Source: Plicaturopsis crispa FD-325 SS-3 (Eukaryota; Basidiomycota; Agaricomycetes; Amylocorticiales; Amylocorticiaceae). From it: DNA of 64,000 nucleotides. The DNA lies in NCBI GenBank assembly GCA_000827205.1, contig KN832556.1, positions 1,080,120-1,144,119 of the forward strand, in the 5' to 3' direction. Below, piece after piece: positions 709 through 53,222 of this stretch (positions are counted from its first letter, which is position 1; every line of letters starts with the position of its first letter). The notes under the pieces were generated by a model. It worked only from the letters and a program-made list of their open reading frames with translations, was not told where the DNA came from and did not search any database. Position numbers and translations under genes: made by a program.

Positions 709-3220
709 TCAAACTTGCGAGACGCCCTGCGTGACATGGGGGTATGTCGCAGCAATCATCTAAAGCAATGATGCACAATGAGCCTCAGTCTGGACCAGAA
801 CCAAAAACAGGACCGTACGTTGAACAATTCCGGTGCACGAACAGCCAGCACCTGCGGGTCTTCCCCCAGTCCGACGAATCTGCGCATCATCTTCAGTACA
901 CGGGGAGGTCAAGGAAATTACGCCGGGCGCAACGTACATGGTGGATACGCCAGCCTCTATCGCAGAGGAGAGCGTCAACGCTGTATATTTGACACGTTAG
1001 CGCCGCTATTTCCTGTGTTTTCATATACACAGCACTCACAGCATTGCAGGCCGATGAGGAACGCGAACAGTATCACAGGTGCAGTGTACTGGCCATCCGC
1101 ATTGTACGACGGGGAAGTGACTAGTCATGCCATTAGCAATTTATACACAAGCTGGCGGGGAGGAGTAGCCACTCACAGCGAAGATAGAGGTACGCGAAGA
1201 GTGAGGACAGCATGCCGACCGCATACGCGCCCCAGGTGAGCGCTAGCGTCTATGAGTTTTATGCAACGGAAGACGCAGACACGGAAACTCACTCATTCCC
1301 ACCAGCGAATCGTTGACGATCGTGTCAATGCCTGATTTCGATGCAGCATAAGCAGACTTGAACGTCATACAGGAAGGAAGGTTGGTGGCTTACCGCGATC
1401 TTTGAACATCCTCCATGTGTCCTTTGCGGCCTGTATATACGGTTTTCCGTACAATGCTGGCACGTCATGCACTTAGCACGCCACATAGTTCCAGAAAAAA
1501 GGAGATTGATATTACCTATCTCGATTTATGCATATCTTCAGGACAATGGGAGGTTAGCACTCAAACCCAGCAAATCGCGAGACGCTAGCGTACCTATTAA
1601 AGTACTCGACCATCCCTTGGATGCAGCCCACAAAGCACTCCGCGCAACATGCCAAACACGCCTCCACAGCTGCAACATGTGTTGTCAGAACAAGCCAACA
1701 ACCCGCATAACGCGATACCGAATACTCACGGTGACCGTCGGCGTTCGCGTTCTGCCTCACGGCGTTGAGCACCATCTTGAGAATTTCGAGGAGCGTGACG
1801 ATTAGCGACCCAAACGCAATGGATCCGAGGGAGAGCGTTGAGGCGCGGCTGAATGCCGACAGAGTAGGGTGTTTCGGCTATTGACGCAGAAATCAGGGCG
1901 TCAGCGTCTTCGACATGTAGCTTCGATTGTGAGTACGTACCATCTCGCCCTGCTCTCTAGGACCAAAGTAGTACCAACCTATTCGCCATTATCAGCATAC
2001 CTGCCCTAGCTATCACGATGAAGGGGAAAAAGACAGACTTCCGTACGGGCCGCCAGCAAGCGTAGCGAGAGCGACATTGCCGATCACCTGGGACGTCCAT
2101 AGGTAGGAAAACGTCTCGAAGAATATAAGTCCCGCGACCTTCCCGGATGAGCAGGAGCTGCCTTGGCCGCAAGCTACGACGCGCGATTAGAAACACTTAT
2201 ACAACGAACATTGGTTTTCTTGACTAACAGGGGTTGTTAGGCGTCCATTTCGAGTACGTCGCAATGGCGGTGAAAGTGAACCAGCTGTCCGAGCAATTTC
2301 AGGTCAGTGTATTTTGGAATGCTGGGCGTATGCGGGAAAGAGGCTTACACGCTCAACGCGGCCTGCAAGAAAAGCGCAATAAACGCGACAACGTAGACGC
2401 TCTTGTGGTGGTTCGACACATCTATGACGACTTGCAGGAGGAGCGATGCTAGAGGGATGCGTGATCTCATCCCCCAGTATGACAGGACGGAGAACAAGGC
2501 GATGATGGTAAATATTATGGCTCCAGCTGTCGTCCCTCAGGTCAGTGGAGAGATCTTTGCGCTAGGCCATGGACACGAACTCACAGTAGTATTTTGTGAT
2601 CCAGTAATAGACGCAAATGCCGCTGATATTAATACCAAATTAGCAGTTTCCAGAGGCCACACCAGCAACAAATAACCTACATATTCAACGCAATAGATAA
2701 AATGAGCGTAGCGTGCATAATAAGGCGCGTAAACGTGCGCGTCAGCATAATATACGCGGTGGACAGGAGCAGCGCCGCAGCGGTGACCAGCAACAGCAGG
2801 TACACCGTCGACTTATTCAAAGTCACCGCCGTCCCCGTACTGCCTTTCCCCAGCCCGCCACCGAGTCCACCGCTAGATATCCACGTGTTTATGGCTATCC
2901 CAGAGAGAGCCGCAAAGCCCAGAAACTGAGACGACGCGTTAGCACCAAGTGACAAGTCGCGGAGGCAGGCTTGGGACAAGGCGCACCTGCAGGATGAAGA
3001 GGACGAGGAACGCTACATCGTTGACGCGTTTTTTGGGCTTGAAGCGGTCCCCCTCGTAGGGCGATTTGGCCTCGTACTCTCCTGCTCCCGTCTGATCGCC
3101 GTATGGCGCTGGCTGGGCGTATGCGGGCGCGTACCCGGGAGAGGGGCCGCCGTTGTTCTGTGCATATTGCGCTTGAGGCTGGGGCTGAGCGCCCCACTGG
3201 TCCTTGTTCCACTGTGACAT
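709..3220 (-). CDS. PNS1: PNS1/CTL-family choline-transporter-like membrane protein
   Basis: Multi-pass plasma-membrane protein of the choline transporter-like (CTL/SLC44) family, whose fungal member is Pns1. The substrate in fungi is unsettled. The N-terminus (ATG 3220-3218) is a Q/P/Y/G-rich cytosolic tail ending in the family motif RFKPKKRVNDVAFLVLFILQ, the first membrane helix. Downstream exons give further family blocks: NISGICVYYWITKYY, AIIFTIIALFSVLSYWGMRSR, and a segment read as YAYIEIALYGKPYIQAAKDTWRMFKDRGIDAIVND. Near the 3' end, splicing at 940 to 887 joins SAIEAGVSTI to FVGLGEDPQVLAVRAPELFN. A last intron leads to MIAATYPHVTQGVSQV and TGA at 709-711. About ten short introns interrupt the gene, so no long uninterrupted frame exists. 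Family assignment is secure; individual exon borders in the middle are less so. Confidence 0.88.
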
Positions 3221-3830
3221 TCAAGTTGCGGCCTTGCCAACGTCAAAGAAGAGATCGTAAGTGCTTTCCGGTCAATAGTTATGGCGTTGGCGTTGATGGT
3301 TGTGGTCAGTGAAATCGTGGCGAACACGAGTGTGCGAGAGGGAGTCTCGAACTTTTGAATACGAAATGCTGTAGTACATAAAGCGAAATACCTCCGGGCC
3401 AATGACGACTCGGAAATGATCGAGGACCGTCGCGGACTGGCAACCTTGATTTTGGCTGCTGCCAGCCTGCAGTGAACACTGAACAGTGGATTTAAGATTG
3501 TGATCTGTTATATTGTGATGCGCAATGCAGTGCTTTATAGTGTTCATCGACCGTGAGGACCTGCTACAGTTCAGTATACGAAGAATACACAACGCTCTCA
3601 CAAAACAAAAGAGTGGCGAGATCGGGAAATGGAAAAACTGTTCGTGTTTAATGTGGCCCTACAACACAACCGGATGATTCAGTATCACAGCAAAAGTCAC
3701 ACCAAGCCCATCGACCAGTCAAGCTAGTCAACTCTACTCGCCTCAAGGTAGTCAAAAATCGATGGATTAGCGCGCTGAAATGCCGCGGACAGAGTATCAT
3801 TGCGTGTACAATTTGTTGAAAATGAGGGTG
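3221..3830. promoter_or_regulatory. Intergenic: PNS1 upstream region / PP2C downstream region
   Basis: This 610 bp stretch separates two minus-strand genes. It must hold the PNS1 promoter and the PP2C 3' UTR. Short frames in it have no recognisable homology. No clear TATA element or repeat was seen. Confidence 0.4.
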
Positions 3831-6062: not shown

Positions 6063-6947
6063 ATGAGGAAAACATCCTATGTGGTCACCTTTTTTATGGT
6101 GCTTGCAACCCTGATAATTGTGCGTCTCCTCGACCAACACTCCCGCTATTCGGATGGGCACTGACTCCTTTCGCAATACCTCAGAATATCATCTCTGCAC
6201 GCCGTGGGGATTGGTGCGGTCCAGCGATGCTTACTATGCTTACCGTCGGTCTCACGCGTGCATTATCTCAGGTTGACTGTCAAGGGCACAGGAATAGCCC
6301 GCAGCAAGACCATCGTTCGCTATGGGTTGACGAAGCGGTGCGAGCGTCAGGTCGTCGAAATCCCGGGACCGGATAACAGCAGTGTCATCGCGTACACCGA
6401 TTACGAATGCCGCGCTTTCCCGCTCCGCGTGCGCGATGCTTGCGAGACGGATAACAGGGGATTCTGCACCTCCTGGGGCAGTGCTACATATCTGACCGAG
6501 CTGGGTATCGGGTTCGCTGCCATGGCGCTGGTGGCCATCCTGATCGGCGTCAGCACCCACTCGAGGAGGAGGAGGGTCTGGAGAGCTATCGCTGCATTTG
6601 TAGCTGTTCACGGTATGATTTACGCTATATACGTTTGATATGACATTAAACTCGTTCTCATAGCCGTTTTCCAACTCGCGACCTTCATCATCGTTACGGA
6701 AATCTATCGTACCTCGAAGTTCTCTCACTTCAGCGAGGCAAAACCAGGTAAGTGACTGGTTCGATATTTGGTACTCTAGAGATATCTACTTACATTGGCG
6801 CGTGCAGGCACCGGTTACATCTTAAACGTGGTGTCTTGGGTCGTCGGCATCTCCGTCACAGCTGGTGTAGTCACGACCGGTATATCGGCTGACAAGGGCC
6901 ACAAATGGGCTGCCGGGAACAGAGCCTACAGGCCAATCGAAGGATGA
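6063..6947 (+). CDS. Claudin-like / SUR7-PalI-type four-helix membrane protein
   Basis: ATG 6063 opens the hydrophobic helix MRKTSYVVTFFMVLATLII. After splicing, the text continues NIISARRGDWLTVKGTG...TIVRYGLTKRCERQ, then a cysteine-bearing external loop (YECRAFPLRVRDACETDNRGFCTSWGSATY). Helix 2 is LGIGFAAMALVAILIGVS, helix 3 begins at VWRAIAAFVAVHG/AVFQLATFIIVTEIY, and helix 4 is NVVSWVVGISVTAGVVTTGIS. The stop TGA is at 6945-6947. A short first loop containing D-W-L and R-Y-G-L..C, paired cysteines and four helices are typical of fungal claudin-like proteins at the plasma membrane or eisosomes. There is no catalytic motif and the specific function is unknown. Three or four short introns are required. 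Confidence 0.7.
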
Positions 6948-7400
6948 ACATTGAACCCTCATGGATATATGTCTGATGTGGAACCCCCATGATTATATCC
7001 CCGCTCGTGTTGTCCGTAGCCCCCGCTCAACCTTCACATTCATAGATACACGAAAGTTCTTACTAGCGCATACCACCCCTTTTCATGTGTACATTACTGC
7101 CGAGCGTTTGTGTTTTGCAACTTGCTATTTTTTACCCCGGAAATCTCGTCGTTCACCTCCCTTTGAACAAGTCGCGATCCGTGCATCCCAGCTCTTAGGC
7201 CATCTCATCGCGATATTATGTAGCACCTAACTTGTATCCTCGCTCAGGGGCGTCACAATGATTTGTACTTGTCTTCAACCAGGCTTTAGTCGCACCAGTT
7301 AGAGACGAATATGATACACGACTCCATAAATATGTCATCCATACTATGCGCAAGAAAGATGCCAACATTCAGTAAAGTCTCTATCTCAATACCAACTAGA
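6948..7400. other. Intergenic, convergent 3' UTRs
   Basis: 453 bp between the ends of the claudin-like gene and the acyltransferase gene, which converge. It is AT-rich. A frame at 6961-7230 has no recognisable content. No repeat or RNA gene was seen. Confidence 0.45.
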
Positions 7401-9456
7401 TCACCCGTCCTCCGGGTAGTCGACCTTGTCGTACAGCCGGAGCGTCTCATTCCAATCCCTCTTTCTCCGCCTCCTCACCGAAAAGTACCGTGCCCCGCTC
7501 TCCCACTTGCTGCGCACGCGCCCCTTCTCCTTCCCCCCGCTCTCCACGAAATACACCTCCGGATCCTCCGGCAGCTCGAGCGTCCCCACCGCGAGCCCCA
7601 TCACGCGGCTGTGCAAATCCGCGCGGCGCTCGTGCATATTCCCCAGCGTCGCCTTCCCCACACGCAGCAGCCGCACCAGCGCCGCGAACGCGCGGAACGC
7701 CGAGACCGCGTCCTCGAGCCAGCGGAGCGTGATCCACATGAGCGCAGGCACGAGGAAGAACGTGATGAACGCGAAGGGGAGGGTGAGGAGCACGGCGGCC
7801 GTCCATACGCAGAGCCCGGACATGAGTCCGTAGATGAGCTTGTACTGCGCGATTTCGTCCCAGGTATCCCAGATGGGGCCGCTTTTCTTGAAATTGTGCA
7901 CGGCGTAGAAGGTGGTTAGGAAGACGGGGACCCAGAGGGCGAGGCCGGGGAGTGATATCGTGAATAGGAACAGGGACCACACGAGACGGATGACGATACG
8001 CTTAAGGATAACGCGGCGAGTCAGTGGTCGTCGGATGCGATCGTCCTTGATGCCCCAGCGCGACAACTGGTCTTGATAGGTCTGTGATATACCGTAATGT
8101 AAGTACTTGTTTGTGAAAGTGGGATAGTACTTACCTTTAGGTCACGGCGCAGTGACTCAAGAGAAGGATGCTCGGGCTCATCCTGCTCGTCGTTCTCGTC
8201 ATGGCCCATGATCGCATTCTCGTGCCGAGCCTCTTCAGAAGTCTTGAACGCATCCAGAAAAGTCGCAACCACGCGCACATGATCCCCCAGACTCATCCTC
8301 GTTCCCAGCGGCGCGTAGAGTCGAGCGGCAAGCTTCGCGGTCCTGACGAGATCCCACGACGGCGAGTCGATGGTGCCGGAGCTGATCTGCTGGTACATCC
8401 GCGCGGTGAGTGAACGGATCTGCTCGTACTCAACGGGTGCGAGCAGTTCGGGGTTGTCCTGCACGCGGAATTTCATCGGTGAGTGGAAGGTGATCAGGAC
8501 ATCCGAACGCCAATGTTGCCGATGCCTGAGATGGATGTAAGAAATCAACGGAGCAGTATGAAGAGGTATTGACCAACATATAGGTGATCGAGCACGTCAG
8601 TAGGTCGACCTCGTAGTCGGGCTTGTCGCGATTTCGCGTGAGGGAGTCCGATATGATACGAGCAACTAGCACGCGTTTAGTGCTATTTCTCCCACAAAGT
8701 TGTAGATTTACCTCCGGTCTTGAGTGGAGCCATGGTGGGATGATATCTGCTCATGCCTTCGGGGAAAAGGCAAATAGCGTCCCCAAGTTCCAATACCTAG
8801 ATGTTGAGGCCGTTAGAGACGACATGGAGCGAACATGCACGACCCAACCTCCAATAACTTTTCCATAGCGTCGGTGTTGTCGACGGCACCGTCCACAAAG
8901 TCTTTCCGGCGTTTAATGGGAACTGTACCAGCAGATTCTATAAGCCAGCTGGTGAACGTCTTGTGGCCGAATTGCGTAGATTTCGCAGTGAGCCTAAGCA
9001 TGTTGCGTTTCTAAATTCGTAACTGTGAGCAATCCGCAATTTCTTTCGGGAAAGAGAAAAATACGCACCTTGGACGAGACCGCGCCAACAAGCAGTCTAT
9101 ATCCAGGCATCTCAGCATTTTGTGAGACAAGGAGATAAAGAATCCTCACACTGCATCTGTGAGGGAATTGCTATGGTTCGCAGACACAATGCTATATAGC
9201 GGGGTAATATACGTCAGACATGGAAAATGATGAAATGCGCAGAGCTCACCATGGTACGCCATTCGGAGGTATGAGCTCGGCGTTCTCGACAACGATCGTC
9301 CCGTAAAATATCTTGAGCACGAACTTGAAGAGAAGCCTGTAATTCACAGCGTTCGAGCGCGCCGTTAGCGCTGTTCCAAAAAGGAAAGAACTGAAGGATG
9401 CAAAAGGCGTACCGGACCAGAAAATACGACCAGGGTGTCGCCGTTCCTTCTGCCAT
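7401..9456 (-). CDS. Glycerol-3-phosphate/dihydroxyacetone-phosphate acyltransferase (SCT1/GPT2-like)
   Basis: ER membrane enzyme for the first acylation step of phospholipid and triacylglycerol synthesis. The start MAEGTATPWSYFLVRYAFCILQFFPFWNS (ATG 9456-9454) leads into LLFKFVLKIFYGTIVVENAELIPPNGVP, which matches the GPT2/SCT1 N-terminus. The acyltransferase motif NHSNSLTDA (the N-H-x4-D box) is on the exon around 9150-9180. It is followed by VGAVSSK, RLTAKSTQFG, IPIKRRKD-like residues, LFPEGMSRYHPTMAPLKTGVARI (FPEG motif), and a long C-terminal part with two hydrophobic segments (VWSLFLFTISLPGLALWVPVF and LTLPFAFITFFLVPALMWI). The C-terminus ends LRLYDKVDYPEDG. The gene is divergent from RRP12 across 309 bp. 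The substrate preference (G3P versus DHAP) cannot be told from the sequence. Confidence 0.88.
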
Positions 9457-45280: not shown

Positions 45281-46595
45281 TCAACCCTCGGAATCCAAAG
45301 AAATCTCATCATCGCTCACTAGCCGCCGCCGCATGTCCCATTTGAGCAGGTACTGCCGCGCGCGCTCGCCAAAGACATCGCAGCCGTCGAAGAAATCTTT
45401 GGGTATCAGGTCCTTCCGCGCGTCCCACGGCTTCACGTCGACGAGCGTACAGCGATCGAGGCACACGAGAATCATCCCGAAGGAATACGCGTCTGCTAGC
45501 AGCGGATCCGTGCACTCGCCGCGCAGGATCTCCGGTGCGGAGAACGGCCGCGTGCCCGGGTGGATCTGCTCGACCTGCTGGAGCTGCGGGCGCTTGATTA
45601 CGGATGAATTATTTGGGGCGGCAAGGGAGGCGAAGGGGTCAACGGGCTCGGCGTCTGGCGAGGTATAGCTCGAATACGCGGAAACGGACCGCCCGAAGTC
45701 GAGTAATTTTATGGTATCGGAACCGTGCGTAACCTGTACGTTGAGCAATGACAAGTCGCCGTGGCTCAGGCCGTACGAATGCAGGTGCGTCAGGCCCGCA
45801 AGTAGTTGGTTGTGGTAGTCAATTTTCTTCGCGCGCGTCAGTGCCGGCACCTCTTTCACGACATCGTACAGCGTGCGGCCCTCGACGAACTCGAGCACCA
45901 TGCCGACGTTCTCGAGACATCCGAGAAAAGCCGCGATATTCCGATGTCGCGGGAGGGTCGTATATACGCGCAGCTCGGCGAGGAACTGTGTTGTGACGTC
46001 GACGGCATTGCTCTGCATCTCGCCGTTGATCTCGAGCTGGACAACGTCCGGCTTTTTGACCACACATTTAAAGAGCTCAGACGCAGATCCCTGCGCGCAC
46101 GGTGCAAGGTTCATGGTAGGATTTGGAGGCGCTGCGTATGCAGTTGGGGTTGGAAATGAGAATATAGACGTTGGATGGCGAGGAGGATTGTAGATCGGAG
46201 GCGACGGTGGTGGCGTCGGTGCTCGGAGATGTGCGAGGGATTGGTGTGTTGGGGGATGCGGGTAATGAGATACAGCTGTTTCCTCGGACGAGGCAAAAGA
46301 ATTCGCGGAAGTGTTGATGTTCTCTTCCTCCTCGTCCATCTCGACTGTTCGGGGTTAGCGGTACGGCGTAAAGCAGCACCCAAGGGCATGACGTACCCAT
46401 CCACCAGTTTTTCTTTGAGGTCAACGTGACACGTTTAACGTGCATTGCTGCTGCGTTAGATTGCGCGCGCGGTGGAGGCGCTGGGCGCGGGGTAATGCTC
46501 CCTGTCATGATCGGTGTACCAGGTGCAGGTGTGTCTATTGGCGATGTTGCCATCGAGGCAGATGCTGATCCACGACGATACGGCGGATGATGCAT
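45281..46595 (-). CDS. Protein kinase-like protein with weak N-lobe motifs
   Basis: ATG 46595 gives MHHPPYRRGSASASMATSPIDTPAPGTP, a Ser/Pro/Thr-rich tail, and an intron after NWWMG. The kinase fold follows. The expected Gly loop is reduced to GSASELFKCVVKK, with VVKK the likely ATP-binding Lys. The alpha-C glutamate lies in FLAELRVYTTLPRHRNIAAFLG. The hinge is GMVLEFVEGRTLYDVV. The catalytic loop is LSHGDLSLLNV (HGD instead of HRD). The metal-binding motif is IKLLDFGRS, then GTRPFSAPEIL (APE) and DAYSFGMILVCL. The C-terminus is RQYLLKWDMRRRLVSDDEISLDSEG, TGA 45281-45283. It is a member of the loosely defined fungal kinases with an HGDL loop; the target is unknown. Confidence 0.8.
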
Positions 46596-46955
46596 GGCCT
46601 GTGAGGAATCTGGTAGACAAACTATGTTAGTTTCAATGAAAATGGGAGCAAGGAGCAGCAGCAACTTGAAGCGCGCCGCGTTCCACTGCTATCGACTTTG
46701 AATTAACCCCTATCTGTCTTGGACGTTTCCCCGCTTGCGCCAGCAACTTGGCGCGAATTTGCCTAGCATTTAGTGTGCCCTTCAGCTATAGTTTACGCCC
46801 TGAGATACGAGGGCATGTCGAGGTAAGTCTGTGCGTAGTTTGCTGAACGAAAGGAAAGGCCTGAGCCAATTGCAACCTGGGGCGAACGCTTTCCAGTGGT
46901 TTGCAGCTCGGCGCGTCGGATCGGAAACCGGAAATCCGTCCACCGGTGCATTTTC
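46596..46955. promoter_or_regulatory. Upstream region of the kinase, up to the transposon edge
   Basis: 360 bp, including the kinase 5' flank. The left copy of the transposon's target-site duplication, GCATTTTC, sits at 46948-46955. Before insertion this stretch would have been joined directly to the NKAP upstream region at 53091, making an ordinary divergent promoter of about 490 bp. Confidence 0.45.
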
Positions 46956-47050
46956 GAGAACATCAGAGCGACTGGGGCGGACGTTCGGCGGACTCGTTCG
47001 GCGGACGTTCGTCGAACTGGTGCCTGGGTGGCCTGTCACCACGTGGTGAC
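46956..47050 (+). repeat. Left terminal/subterminal inverted repeat of the transposon
   Basis: It begins GAGAACATCAGAGCGACTGG. It contains CGGACGTTCG twice (46978 and 47002 regions) and ends with a perfect 16-bp palindrome, GTCACCACGTGGTGAC, at 47035-47050. The outermost part pairs with the inverted right end. Confidence 0.8.
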
Positions 47051-47277
47051 AACAATAGAGCGCAGAACTCCGCGGCCGGCTTGTCCATTGTCCTCCTCGT
47101 TCATTGTTCTCCTCGATCGTCACGTAGCCGCAGCTCAAGATCAAGTACCTGCATCTTGAGCAGGAGGCGGTATGTCTCACTTACCGCCTCGTATTAACAA
47201 TTACAGCCCACCAATATGTAAATACTCGCCGAATATACCTCTTCTCCAATATTCCCTGCGGCGTCACTGCACGGCTC

Positions 47278-49680
47278 ATGGATTTCAATGCCTTACTGGA
47301 GGCACTCAACGCCTACCCTCCTCTTCGCTCTGCTGTTGATTACGATGCCCTGACTATGTATATGGATTTAGTCCGTCTTCTCAAACCCACCCTCACCCTG
47401 ATCAAGCCATCGTATCAAGAAGGGCCTCCCGACGCGCTTCCTGTGGGAGTGCACGACTTTCTGCGAGTTTCCATTGGTGTTGAGGACGAGACCGCAAAGC
47501 TTATGTGGATTGCATTCCGTGACTTTGCATGGCGCACGAACTCTTCAGAGGATGAGGAACGCGTATGGCGTGCTAGTGCTCGCGTGAAGTACATGCGCGT
47601 ATTTCTTGAGAATGGGCTAAGCCGCGGTGTCGGTAAGTCGTGTGCTTAACATTGGTCGTATCATGCTGACATATGCGAGTTATAAGGTATCTACGATGTT
47701 GGACCACCCACCCGCATCTGCCTTGACCCTGCGTGCCGCCAGCAGGTCCGGGTGAACCCAGATTGGCTTCGAGAACGTGAACTCGTCGAGCCGCTCTCGC
47801 ACCCGATTACGGTCTTCACAGCCGACTTTGGTGCCATCCCGAGCTTCACTACGTCAATGTACTGCCGCGGTAAGTGCTTATTTCAGTTTCTTGTGTCTCC
47901 CGTCCTTATCTGTGCTATCTAATACCAGGGTGTCACTCGCGTTACCACCCCAATTACTACGTTCACATAGGTGCTACACGTCGCACATATTACTCCCGCG
48001 AGATCCTTGAGCGGTGTGAATTTTTGCACGTTGCCAAGCATCATTTCTTCAGTGTAAACCTGTGTGAATTGATCACAAACATGCTCGGGACCTGGTGAGT
48101 TCGGCATTGCTTCGAGACATCTATATATGTACTAATGATTTCGAACAGTACCTCCGCGTCAAATATCGTGCGCGTTTATAGTGAAGGGATAGGGAATACA
48201 TCTTTTCGCGATGCGCTTCCCGCCTCACCAAGCACCAGCTTGCAGCTCACCGTTCAGCTTGCCCTGGATGCCTTCTTCCTTAATGCACTTCTGCACGATC
48301 ATGCAGAGCAAGGGACCGTCCTAGAGCTTCCCCACGATGCGGCTTCGCAAGCGCTGCGTCTTCAGCCCGCCCTACAAGCCAGGAATGCTCGCATGGCTGG
48401 ACCTGGCCAGGAGGAATGGAGCCATGCGTGCGACAGTTGCTGCTGGGTATACACGGATAATAACGGAGTATTGCGTGAGTTTTTCCGCGTGTTCCACGTT
48501 CTCAACCGTCTGATGAATCTCATTGTATTTTAGAGTATCTCCGATCGACCGTCACCGACGGCGTTACCTTAGGGCATCCGTGCTGCGGTGTGCAAGACTG
48601 TACTACCCCCCTCGCCTCCGTCAATGATCATTTTTGCCCCAACCACCGTGACCGCCTCCGTGTTTGTGTCGTCACAAGCTGCGAGGCTCGTGTAGAGCCA
48701 GGGTTTCGTACCTGTCCCGACCCGAGTCATCGAGCGCTTGAGCTCTACCATTACGAGCAGGGAAAATCGATGTTCCAGCTGAAGCGCCGTCATGAGCGCA
48801 CGAAAGCCCTCCGACTACATGATCCTCTGCCCACGGTATCCCAGCCACTGCCGAACCGCTTACCAAGTTACAACGAGCTTCGTGACGAGCTTCATGCCAG
48901 TCCGCTCGATCTACGCCCTGCGGAGACCAACAATGAATCAATCAATCAAGAAGCGGATGGCGAAGACGGTACTGGTATCGACGACGACGAGCTTCTCGTT
49001 GACGCCGACGGCATCTGCGACGGCAAGCCCGAGGCAGGAAACGAGAAAGTCCGTGCACGTTTTGGTCGTCGTCGCACACACAACGAGGAGCTCTGCGTTG
49101 GCTCCTGTGGAATGGTTCTCGGGCGCGGCACGTTCTTTGGTTCAGAAGCCCCGAATGGTGTTCGAGTAAGTGGAATTTTCCCATGTTGTTGTGCTGCTAA
49201 ACTGATGCTCTGATCCAGACCTTTTGGAAGCGCTTATTCCCTACGAAAGAGTCCCTCCCAGGCGTCCTGTGGTACGACAATAACTGCCAGATAATCAAGA
49301 TGCTCAACAATGATCCGCCGGATGAACGCGAGTATTTCGGTAATGTAGCACTGCCGGTCGACGTCTTCCACTTCAAGTGCAAGCACAAAGAGAGCGATGA
49401 AGTGTGCGGGCTTTACTGCAATCCATACAATTGGCAGGAGCTACGCACTGAAGACGACAAGGCATGGCGCTTCAACTCATCTGCAGCTGAGCAGACGAAC
49501 GCATGGTTTGGAGGGTTCTCTTCTATCGTTCGGGAGATGCAGGTCGCACGGTACAATTTTTTTCTCGATGAAATGATCAAGCGCAGGAATAGACTGATAA
49601 AGAAGGATCTCGAGCGGCGAGGAAAGGCACCGTGGAATATACCTAGGGACAGTTTGCTGCGTAGTTGTACGATCACGTAG
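47278..49680 (+). CDS. KDZ transposase (CxC5/CxC6 cysteine-cluster type)
   Basis: The transposase is assembled from six exons, each junction keeping frame: RGV-G-IYDVGPP, YCR-GCHSRYH, GTC-TSASN, VLQ-YLRSTV and GVR-TFWKR. The N-terminal half has Cys clusters (ICLDPACRQQ, CRGCHSRYHPNYYV, CDSCCWVY, CCGVQDC, CPNHRDRLRVCVV) of the kind called CxC5/CxC6 in KDZ transposases. The catalytic half has GICDGKPEAGNEKVRARFGRRRTHNEELCVGSCG, then LPGVLWYDNNCQIIKML, then FHFKCKHKESDEVCGLYCNPYNW, and FNSSAAEQTNAWFGGFSSIVREMQVARYNFFLDEMI. I infer Asp in CDGK, Asp in YDNNC and Glu in AEQTN as the RNase H-fold acidic triad. About 700 residues, no internal stop. It ends SLLRSCTIT and TAG 49678-49680. Confidence 0.87.
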
Positions 49681-49753
49681 ATAGAAATCAATTGATTCGT
49701 TGCTTGCGCTCATTAGATGTATTGCGCTTCGATGAATACATGCTCAGTAGATA

Positions 49754-52700
49754 CTAGTCGTCAATCTCAAGGATAAGTTTACCATCTATAACCGTTTCTG
49801 TGAACCTTGTTTCCGTGCGGACCAACTGCCGTTCAGCTTCCAGCTCATCAGTTTCCTCCTTGACTCCGTCAGCGCCGCCTTCCCGCTCCTTGAACCACAA
49901 GTTGAAGCCCGCCTGACTGCCTGATGCCTCATACTCATCAAAAGCGGCCAGGTTACGGGCAACAGTATCCGCAATCAAGCGTTGAACAGCCTGCACCGAA
50001 TCGCTGTCTGCGCCCGGATGCAGAACCCTTCCAAACTTGCTGCTCTTCACCAGGATGTTAGCGGCCTTCGTCGGATCAACAGGAAGATCACCCTGGATGA
50101 GCAGTAGCAGCGTTTCCGGAAGCAAGAACTCGCGGATGAGAGTCGCCCAAGGAACCGGTTTGAAGGGCGTCAAGTCGAAGCCACCGTCGGGGAATAGATA
50201 CGTGAGTGTGAGCCACACAATCTGGTACCCCTCGATCCCGTAGCTGAGTCGTGACGTGGTTAGTACAATATACACCGGAATGAGCATGACCACTCACTAT
50301 CCAGCTGAGTTTCCTGTGAATGAACGAAACGTGCCGTCAAGTCTATCAGCGCGACTCGGTCCCGGTGCGTACCGCGCCTTGCAAGCCTTGAAGTATAGGC
50401 TTTCATTGGGACGGTGTAGTACAGCGATAAGGACCTCCTCGAGAGTGCAAATGCGATTGAAGAGGGCGGTGAAATCAGGATCGAATGGCCATTCTTCGAG
50501 CCGGGCAGTTGGGAGGTCGTCGCGTTCCATATCATGGCGCTGGCAGAAATCGTGATGGACAACATAGTTGTCGACCGCGTAGTGACCGGAGTTGTGTATA
50601 TTGGGATCCAACCAGGTCCGTGGCGACGCCAGTAGATTGGCACGCATCTTCGTGAGGTCATCAGAAAGTGTGTCCGGGAGGAGCTCGTCGCAAAAGGGGC
50701 ACAGCTTAGTTGTGTCGTCGTCAAGATCATCAGACTCGGAGGCGCGGCCTTTGCCAGATGAGCGAGTCTCCGAAGACCTGGTGAATGCGTCCTGAATGTC
50801 GGGTAGGTCCTCGTCGTCAAAATCCTCGTCCAAATTGTCGGTCGGGCGCGCAGCCGGCAGAGCAAATTCGGAGTTCTTCTTCGCCCAGTTGCTGTATGCG
50901 GCTGCGAAGAACGTCCACGGCGTCGAGCTTGCACGAGTATAATGTTGCTTGATATCGTCCGGGGTGTTTTTCCAGTTGCGCCGGTGCTCGTAGAAAGTTG
51001 TCCGTGTCCAGTCCGAGTGTGTGAAGACCTTCTCAAAAACGTCCCGAAGTAGTAGCTTAGGGTCAGCCAAGCACCGCGTCACGATCGTGTCCAGTCCTGC
51101 GATAATCTCGCCGCACGAATAATCCGATGGCCATCGTCTTCGCTTTTCCGCCGGGAAAGACGCAGTCGAAGCTAACCGGGTCGCCTGAGTCAGATCCGGG
51201 AATGGTGTCTGGGGCCGTCGAGGGAGCGGCGCAATGGCGCGCGCTTTTCCAGCAGCCTTAGAAGCCGGCCTAGGGGAAGGGGGAGGTGTGTCGTCGATCT
51301 CGATGATGCGCGTGTCGTTCCGGGCGGCGGACTGAGGGGCGGTGGATGTCGTGTCCCGACGTGGCGCTTTCGGAGGCGAAACAAGAACTTGGGCGGCCCG
51401 CTTCCCAAGGGCAAGAGGACGCGCCGCCAGAAGCTTTAGCTGGTCCTTGATTCCCGGACAATCTTCGTCGTTAGGGGGGCGTTGCTTAAGGTCCCTCCGG
51501 AGTCGAAGGACGGCGCGCTGTCCCCTCTCGAGGAAGCGCAGAATTGCGGTAGACAAAACCTTGGTCTTCCACTCGCCTTCCCACACGTCAACGAGAGATG
51601 TATCCTCTAACGTGAAGATATCGATGAGCGCAGCCACGGTCCGTAGTCGCAGTGTTGGAAAGGTGTCGCAGGGATGTTCGAGGACAAACGGCTCCAAGCC
51701 ATGCTACATAAAAAGGATGAATACCTGCACATCCTGATGGATTGTAACAGCGACACGTACCTCGTGATATACCACAAGATTAACCATACGCTTCTCGAGT
51801 TCGTCGATCTCTTGGCGCTTCGCCTTCAGTGTGACCGTCGAGTCTCGTCTTGCTTGGGCATCATTGTAAGGCTCTAGCCAGTCCGGATGTAAAGGCTGCG
51901 CCAATGGCGCCCGACGTTGCGAGGCCTCCGCCGTGACCGGCTGCGGGCGTGCGAGCGTGCGAGGCGCAGTCCGTTGAGAGCTGTTAGGTAGCGGCTGAGA
52001 ACCATTGGAAGGTCGCTGAGAGCCGTCAGGAGGCCGTCGAGAGTTTGCGGGGATATGAGTGGCGGGTGCGGGGACATGAACGGCGGGTGCGGGGACATGA
52101 GCGGCGGGTGCGGGGATATTGAGAGCGTCGAGAAGGTTGGCCGGACGTGGTGGCTGAGCGTTTTGAACGATGGGTACGAGTGGTGCCACGGGGTCCAAGA
52201 CTCGGATCGCATCTTGTCTGTGAGTGCGACACTCGTCGCGTACAGTACCGCCGTGTCTCGCGTTGTCAGCAGCTTCGATACAGCACCTCTTACACTTCAG
52301 CTCTAGGCAAGTTTGACTTCCGCGGGTACGAGACCCCGATTTTGTCACGCAAGTAGCGACTGCACACAGTAGAGTGCCATCGGGCGCTCGTACAGGCAGT
52401 GGACGTGGAGACCGCGGACGCAGGGGGGCCATCTGAGCGGCTGCAGGGACGGGGCGGTTCAGTCGGCGTGCTTCGAGGCGGATTATGAGCTGTTCTGCGT
52501 CAGCTACGTTGTATGGACCAGCGTAGCATGTTGTCCAGTTGCAGCGCTTGCACTGCGCGGTCATGAACTAATTAGTTTGTGTGATGCCTCGCGATATTTC
52601 AGCTACTCACCGATTGGCAGATGCTCCCTCGTTTGTGCGCGTTTTCGGCAGTCGACCCTTGATGCACGCGTAGTCCTCCCATGTCTCCAGAGCATTCCCG

Positions 52701-52757
52701 ACATCGCTCTACACGATTGAAGTCAGGATCCTGGAGTTGGTCTTCTGCAGGAAACAT
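49754..52757 (-). CDS. Transposon accessory protein: Cys-rich N-terminus and RTC4-like C-terminal domain
   Basis: Convergent partner of the transposase inside the element. The N-terminal exons carry Cys motifs (CRECSGDMGG; CKRCNWTTCYAGPYNVADAEQLI; CLELKCKRCCIEAADN), a Pro/Ala/His heptad repeat (PAPAAHV/PAPAVHV/PAPATHI), and a coiled-coil-like KAKRQEIDELEKRMVNL. The C-terminal half has CPFCDELLPDTLSDDLTKMRANL, HHDFCQRHDMERDDLP, WPFDPDFTALFNRI and, joined across an intron, AGYYGIEGYQIVWLTLTYLF...LIREFLLPETLLLLIQGDL. That is the layout of the RTC4-like domain, named after yeast restriction of telomere capping 4. Introns join VVYHE to HGLEPFVLEHPCD and NSAGY to YGIEGYQ in frame. The start is uncertain: ATG 52757 (MFPAEDQLQD) is used, but an upstream exon from ATG 52896 (MTLKLKALHCGKAG) is possible. 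Confidence 0.72.
52047..52119 (+). repeat. 21-bp minisatellite in the accessory gene
   Basis: Three full units and half a unit, at 52047-52067, 52068-52088, 52089-52109 and 52110-52119 (unit begins GCGGGGACATGA). On the minus strand they encode the PAPA(A/V/T)H(V/I) heptapeptide repeat. Units differ at one to three bases. Confidence 0.85.
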
Positions 52758-52989
52758 AGAGGTCGGAGCGTCGAGACTTGAGAGGGTTGGTTTGGCAGCG
52801 CTAACATAGCTGGATTTGCTTGCAAGATATACTACATACCGCTTTGCCTTTACCTCCTGCTTTGCCACAGTGTAACGCTTTGAGTTTTAAGGTCATTGTT
52901 GAGTGTCCAAGATAGTAGAATTAATAGATCTAGCCGTGTAGATGCGAAGGGTGGCCCCGACACGCCAAAGGGTCGTACCAGTCACGGGA

Positions 52990-53082
52990 GCATGCTCTAG
53001 CCGGTGGCGCCAGGGTGGCACCGTCCGTTCGTCGTCCGGCGAACGGCGGACGAACTCGGTCCCCGGTGGATCTGATATTCTG
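52990..53082 (-). repeat. Right terminal/subterminal inverted repeat of the transposon
   Basis: On the minus strand it starts CAGAATATCAGATCCACCGG at 53082 and continues through TTCG/CGGACG-rich DNA that mirrors the left end. It also contains internal inverted repeats, for example around 53027-53055 (GTTCGTC...GGACGAAC). Confidence 0.78.
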
Positions 53083-53222
53083 GCATTTTCGCTGCAACTG
53101 CTCTACCACAAACTCACCACCAATATCTGCAGTTTTGGACGCCCTGCCGCCTCTTTCTTTTGAAAACGCGATAGACAGGAACATATCAAGTGAATAAGGC
53201 TGCTGCTTTATCGACCAACGCT

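Follow-up and report, generated by a model that had tools for sequence, protein, structure and literature searches.

A complete DNA transposon of probable KDZ kinship with a CxC5/CxC6 gene and an RTC4-like gene in Plicaturopsis crispa

Kyakuja and Zisupton both appear in a table of transposon families (PMC7473861, in the passages drawn on here). In the corresponding passages of PMC12730594, duplications of 8 base pairs (bp) are given for Zisupton and for the Dileera Zisupton-1_PGr, and inverted repeats also for Zisupton. The same passages describe two Laccaria Kyakuja families with CA..TG termini, duplications of 7 bp and a lack of inverted repeats. In Cryptococcus, KDZ1 is described with 8-bp duplications and KDZ2 and KDZ3 with duplications of 4-8 bp (PMC12810828, passages drawn on here). 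A gene type with CxC5/CxC6 zinc clusters is known from Pleurotus ostreatus, where poMSH4 of a sporeless variety is disrupted by an insert of 6,792 bp that contains a CxC5/CxC6 open reading frame (ORF) of 739 amino acids (aa), and where 44 and nearly 60 CxC5/CxC6 regions were counted in two genomes (PMC7641404). According to the passages drawn on from that paper, no KDZ-type transposon was present at the expected distance of CxC5/CxC6, CxC2 precedes KDZ transposons instead, and the authors proposed a link between CxC5/CxC6 and Copia retrotransposons. Here we describe a complete DNA transposon in a 64,000-nucleotide stretch of Plicaturopsis crispa FD-325 SS-3 (contig KN832556.1, positions 1,080,120 to 1,144,119; the window). 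It carries a CxC5/CxC6 gene (gene 1) together with an RTC4-like gene (gene 2). We consider it very probable that this is a two-gene cut-and-paste transposon of KDZ kin, with gene 1 as its own transposase and gene 2 as an RTC4-like passenger or helper.

The element occupies positions 46956-53082 of the window (6,127 bp) and has the termini GAG..CTG. The 8-bp direct repeat GCATTTTC is found on both flanks as an unstranded target site duplication, at 46948-46955 on the left and at 53083-53090 on the right. The outer 22 bp form an imperfect terminal inverted repeat with 17 of 22 positions matching (left GAGAACATCAGAGCGACTGGGG, right CAGAATATCAGATCCACCGGGG). The left end (46956-47017, plus strand) consists of this repeat in its first 22 bp and two sub-terminal CGGACG motifs, and the right end (53022-53082, minus strand) of the repeat and three sub-terminal CGGACG/CGTCCG motifs. 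These two and three motifs fall within the outer 130 bp of the respective ends, compared to a window mean of 0.10 per 130 bp; a single one of 983 sliding windows reaches three, and this is the right end of the element. A preliminary description made from the window's letters had given the range as 46948-53091. The locus was correct, but the element proper is shorter, as the duplications lie outside of it.

As a control for chance, we collected from the 64-kb window all exact 8-mer direct-repeat pairs with a spacing of 500-15,000 bp (n = 15,654). Only one pair, the element's own, was found to enclose inverted 22-mers that agree at 17 positions or better. In 40 dinucleotide shuffles of the window no pair reached 17, and the best value was 16, in one shuffle. 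The inverted ends with 17 of 22 matches, as first described, were confirmed by the end comparison as well as by the window scan and the shuffles. The CpG ratio was 1.13 in the element versus 1.11 in the rest of the window, which is no sign of methylation decay, and the ratio gives the element no date.

A left-end probe of 401 bp was compared with the 33.2-Mb genome and matched three further loci besides the window, each a short element with both ends. Two of them are on contig C18, namely C18a (C18:218773-219521, 749 bp) and C18b (C18:76426-77155, 730 bp), with exact duplications of ACGACGTC/ACGACGTC and CGGAAGGC/CGGAAGGC, respectively. The third is on contig C13 (C13:703079-703830, 752 bp), where the two flanks ACGGAGAC/ACAGAGAC match at 7/8 positions. 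An 8-bp duplication was found at four of four insertions, being exact in three and 7/8 in one. The left 56 bp (89-91%) and the right 49 bp (82-86%) are common to the window element and the three short copies, and each short copy has four CGGACG/CGTCCG motifs on the left and three on the right within the outer 130 bp. Other blastn matches between the window element and the short copies were 12-62 bp long and mostly sub-terminal motifs. The short copies are MITE-like, that is, similar to miniature inverted-repeat transposable elements, and may be derived from a sister element of the window element.

All four insertions stop at identical bases, which bears out the earlier statement that the ends can be placed almost to the base. 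Copies ending at clearly different points had been named beforehand as evidence against this placement; the three other copies share the end points of the window element. The length of the duplication had first been described as 8 bp, or 9 bp if the next G was counted. Three of the four insertions have a G immediately following the right-hand duplication, and C18b has a T there. Because C18b has T where the longer version requires G, we rejected 9 bp; the length of 8 bp is correct and the G is part of the element. In an alignment of 776 columns, gaps included, C18a is 81% alike to C18b, and although they differ to this extent, perfect duplications persist on both. Therefore the age of an insertion cannot be read from a perfect duplication. 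The window element may be recent and autonomous, as the preliminary description proposed, but no second full-length copy by which to date it was found among the best candidates scored.

Genome pattern searches allowing up to three mismatches gave four matches for the left end, all of them the known elements, and five for the right end, four of which were the known elements. The fifth, on contig C28, was rejected as an extra copy, as it has three mismatches, reads as an exon and lies in a 9.9-kb locus without a blastn match to the window. Each of the four duplications ends in C, and in three of the insertions a G directly precedes the left-hand duplication. A target preference is possible from these bases, which come from few sites and were noticed post hoc.

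Gene 1 (47278-49680, plus strand) encodes a probable transposase of 707 aa in six predicted exons (47278-47632, 47687-47869, 47929-48094, 48149-48474, 48534-49165 and 49219-49680). Gene 2 (49754-52757, minus strand) encodes 949 aa in four predicted exons (52757-52611, 52567-51761, 51703-50298 and 50243-49754) and is convergent with gene 1, with 73 bp between them. The splice sites of both genes are predictions from sequence. Once the predicted GT-AG introns are removed, the frames are open over 707 and 949 aa, in agreement with the intact transposase frame and intact second gene of the preliminary description.

The CxC5 and CxC6 clusters that had been recognized in gene 1 from the letters were also found with Pfam. 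CxC5 (PF18718) covers residues 120-247 (E 3.2e-25, 89.0 bits vs a cut-off of 26.9), and CxC6 (PF18721) residues 350-413 (E 2.1e-26, 92.4 bits vs a cut-off of 27.5). The other Pfam match was a weak one to PF10433, below its cut-off. We then compared gene 1 to a KDZ profile of our own, made from 20 KDZ segments of the P. crispa genome. Gene 1 scored 17.2 bits over the whole protein and 11.2 in the best single domain, with E 2e-7 for one target. With 5,000 shuffled proteins the profile reported 2,090, the best at 6.9 bits (domain 6.0). The window and four loci together gave 545 ORFs with a minimum length of 80 aa. Gene 1 exon 6 ranked first among these with 17.2 bits, followed by 8.4 for the next. 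The hhalign comparison of gene 1 to the KDZ segments gave P 0.0012, with YD..CQ, FH..H and a common E in register. These comparisons suggest that gene 1 holds a divergent KDZ-like core, in which D574 and E645, aligned to KDZ proteins, may be read as two catalytic residues. As an observation on the genome as a whole, PF18758, the Pfam KDZ model, has at least 43 matches in several visible sequence groups, in contrast to one CxC6 match listed, that of gene 1. Sequence searches of the PDB gave a best E of 1.6 for protein 1 and 0.6 for protein 2. In viral contigs, gene 1 exon 6 had no pattern match and none of the 114 pattern matches of gene 2 exon 3 was confirmed.

The RTC4-like domain (PF14474) of gene 2 is C-terminal, at residues 752-863 (33.3 bits vs a cut-off of 23.7, E 6.1e-8), and spans profile positions 5-121 of 121. 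In the Pfam comparison, with an E limit of 5, gene 2 gave RTC4 and nothing else; two stretches rich in Cys and His close to the N terminus were seen by eye and have no Pfam match. Gene 2 also contains three copies of a 21-bp unit at 52046-52119, where its protein is rich in proline. The genome scan gave three more RTC4-like genes, on contigs C10, C8 and C13, which are 30-33% identical to gene 2 in the aligned stretches. CPxCD..LP and CxRH motifs are common to gene 2 and the C10 and C13 proteins, and all four RTC4-like genes have a predicted phase-2 intron at one common position, within a Tyr codon. Because this intron position is shared, the ancestor of gene 2 was most likely a fungal RTC4-like gene that was captured as DNA, and not recently from the P. 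crispa genome. The middle part of gene 2 (residues 322-573) also matches a gene on contig C1 with E 5e-12 and 26% identity. This C1 gene (C1:4081952-4082689, minus strand) shows the middle module of gene 2 with RWPxDYS and HR..W stretches and no RTC4 match; it is perhaps a relative of gene 2, or of the host gene from which gene 2 was drawn.

The surroundings of the RTC4-like genes on C8 and C13 are duplicated in part, and a block of 2.3 kb is 95% alike between them. The block corresponds to 1024-3376 of the C8 locus and 6161-8504 of the C13 locus, and the adjacent RTC4-like genes are about 75% alike. None of its ORFs matched a Pfam family, and a search for paired inverted ends at the block gave none. 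We looked for signs that these genes are transposon-borne by comparing the neighbours of the C8 and C13 genes, not those of the C10 gene, to Pfam. At E up to 0.05, two of the 10 ORFs of the C8 and C13 loci were matched (RTC4; and TMD0_ABC, below cut-off). Among the KDZ matches listed, none is on C8 or C13, and all those on C10 are more than 600 kb from the RTC4-like gene there.

In comparison to the described families, the P. crispa element resembles Zisupton and Dileera in its 8-bp duplications, in the inverted repeats known from Zisupton and in KDZ-like features of the transposase (PMC12730594, passages drawn on here). It differs from them in a core too divergent for PF18758 and in having CxC5/CxC6 as its clusters. 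Kyakuja belongs to the same broad transposase group; the P. crispa element differs from it in its 8-bp duplication, GAG..CTG termini and inverted repeats. Duplication length and terminal repeats would fit Zisupton/Dileera and not Kyakuja, as these are described in that part of PMC12730594. With a core this divergent, the Zisupton type named in the preliminary description is a possible placement of the element. Elements bearing TET genes, in the same source, also have a captured second gene; in P. crispa, however, the second gene is RTC4-like and has no match to a TET/JBP dioxygenase in Pfam. Cryptococcus KDZ1-KDZ3 likewise combine KDZ with zinc-cluster domains, but in the passages of PMC12810828 they are about 9.2-11 kb long with inverted repeats of 139-241 bp and CxC1, whereas the P. 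crispa element measures 6.1 kb and has an imperfect inverted repeat of 22 bp together with CxC5/CxC6.

RNase-H-type transposases cut and paste with staggered target cuts. Cut and paste of this type with an 8-bp stagger would be the most likely mode of movement. The CxC5 and CxC6 zinc clusters would probably bind the GC-rich sub-terminal motifs (CGGACG, TTCG) beside the ends, and an RNase-H-like D-D-E core would cut at GAG...CTG. With the target cut at a stagger of 8 bp, insertion of the element would then produce the 8-bp duplication. Gene 2 would act as a passenger or helper; one guess, by analogy with the TET/JBP-bearing elements in the passages of PMC12730594, is that it helps against silencing. 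The short copies may have been moved by the gene 1 transposase or a close relative of it, and the element itself may still be mobile today.

Several observations weigh against this reading. PF18758 gave no report for gene 1 even with the E limit set at 5, and when the genome was scanned with this model, none of the matches listed (at least 43, of which at least 42 over cut-off, several being exons of one gene) fell inside the element. The hhalign probability for gene 1 and KDZ was only 19%. D352 is proposed as a catalytic residue by eye; it is among the first residues of the CxC6 match, before its cysteines, and with this assignment CxC6 would be inserted into the catalytic core. In the genome, among the best candidates scored, neither a gene 1 relative at E up to 1 nor a second full-length copy was found, the counts being lower bounds, and the relatives of gene 2 among the best candidates scored were all distant. 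The short copies share the ends of the window element, not its interior. Three of the four junctions are compatible with 9 bp, and C18b alone decides for 8. The tests on the C10, C8 and C13 genes speak against the idea that RTC4 is as a rule carried by transposons in the P. crispa genome.

The number of PF18758 matches elsewhere in the genome, and the fact that this model does not call gene 1, would also agree with ends that are cut by a canonical KDZ transposase encoded at another locus, with gene 1 as an accessory cysteine-cluster protein. The Pleurotus CxC5/CxC6 ORFs point the same way, being without a KDZ-type transposon at the expected distance and tied to Copia in the passages of PMC7641404. 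However, gene 1 appears to have a KDZ-like core of its own with YD..CQ, FH..H and E, scoring 17.2 bits compared to at most 6.9 in the 5,000 shuffles, and the ends were found only at the four elements and one chance-like match, by pattern search and not by locus-by-locus inspection of KDZ genes. As no other KDZ gene of the genome was found with these ends in that search, gene 1 is indicated as the matching transposase, and we regard a canonical enzyme acting from elsewhere as improbable. We think it equally improbable that a former transposon was domesticated, its single open-frame copy now being kept as host genes. In favour of domestication, a single full copy was found, with both frames open; on the other hand, both ends and an exact duplication persist, and the two genes have been kept together between the ends, within the short interval that separates two host genes. 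Chance repeats flanking two ordinary host genes have a negligible probability in our view: 17 of 22 is an imperfect match, but it was reached in none of the 40 shuffles, and three other loci have the same ends with their own 8-bp duplications.

A two-gene transposon with gene 1 as its transposase also bears on the Pleurotus poMSH4 insert, which is of similar size, has the 739-aa CxC5/CxC6 ORF and is present in several genome copies (PMC7641404). The authors tied that insert to Copia elements, and our comparison is by description only. The main text of PMC7641404 does not contain the words inverted repeat, target site, TSD or RTC4. The P. crispa element suggests that CxC5/CxC6 ORFs are transposases themselves and not companions of Copia. 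A fully bounded element is now available for CxC5/CxC6, described in Pleurotus as lacking a nearby KDZ transposon, and gives a simple way to reinterpret the insertion responsible for the sporeless oyster-mushroom variety.

We further propose, tentatively and as a rather doubtful extension, that CxC5/CxC6 proteins are the transposases of a separate KDZ branch that carries the RTC4-like gene as a working helper, for anti-silencing, DNA repair or end protection. If true, expansions of RTC4 in basidiomycetes would partly be transposon cargo, for example in the rust Puccinia novopanici, which is reported to have 45 RTC4 proteins vs 15 in P. sorghi (PMC9370660). In the passages of that paper drawn on here, RTC4 figures among the enriched gene families, and transposase is not mentioned. 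No report of an RTC4-like gene inside a transposon was found in the literature searched, which excluded the founding KDZ paper. The element ties the little-understood RTC4-like family to mobile DNA, and transposon-driven RTC4 expansion becomes testable.

The insertion lies between two divergent genes, as originally described. The left neighbour is a kinase-like gene on the minus strand and the right neighbour an Nkap_C gene on the plus strand. Their likely start codons, assigned by eye, are at 46595 and 53223, and would have been about 0.5 kb apart before the insertion.

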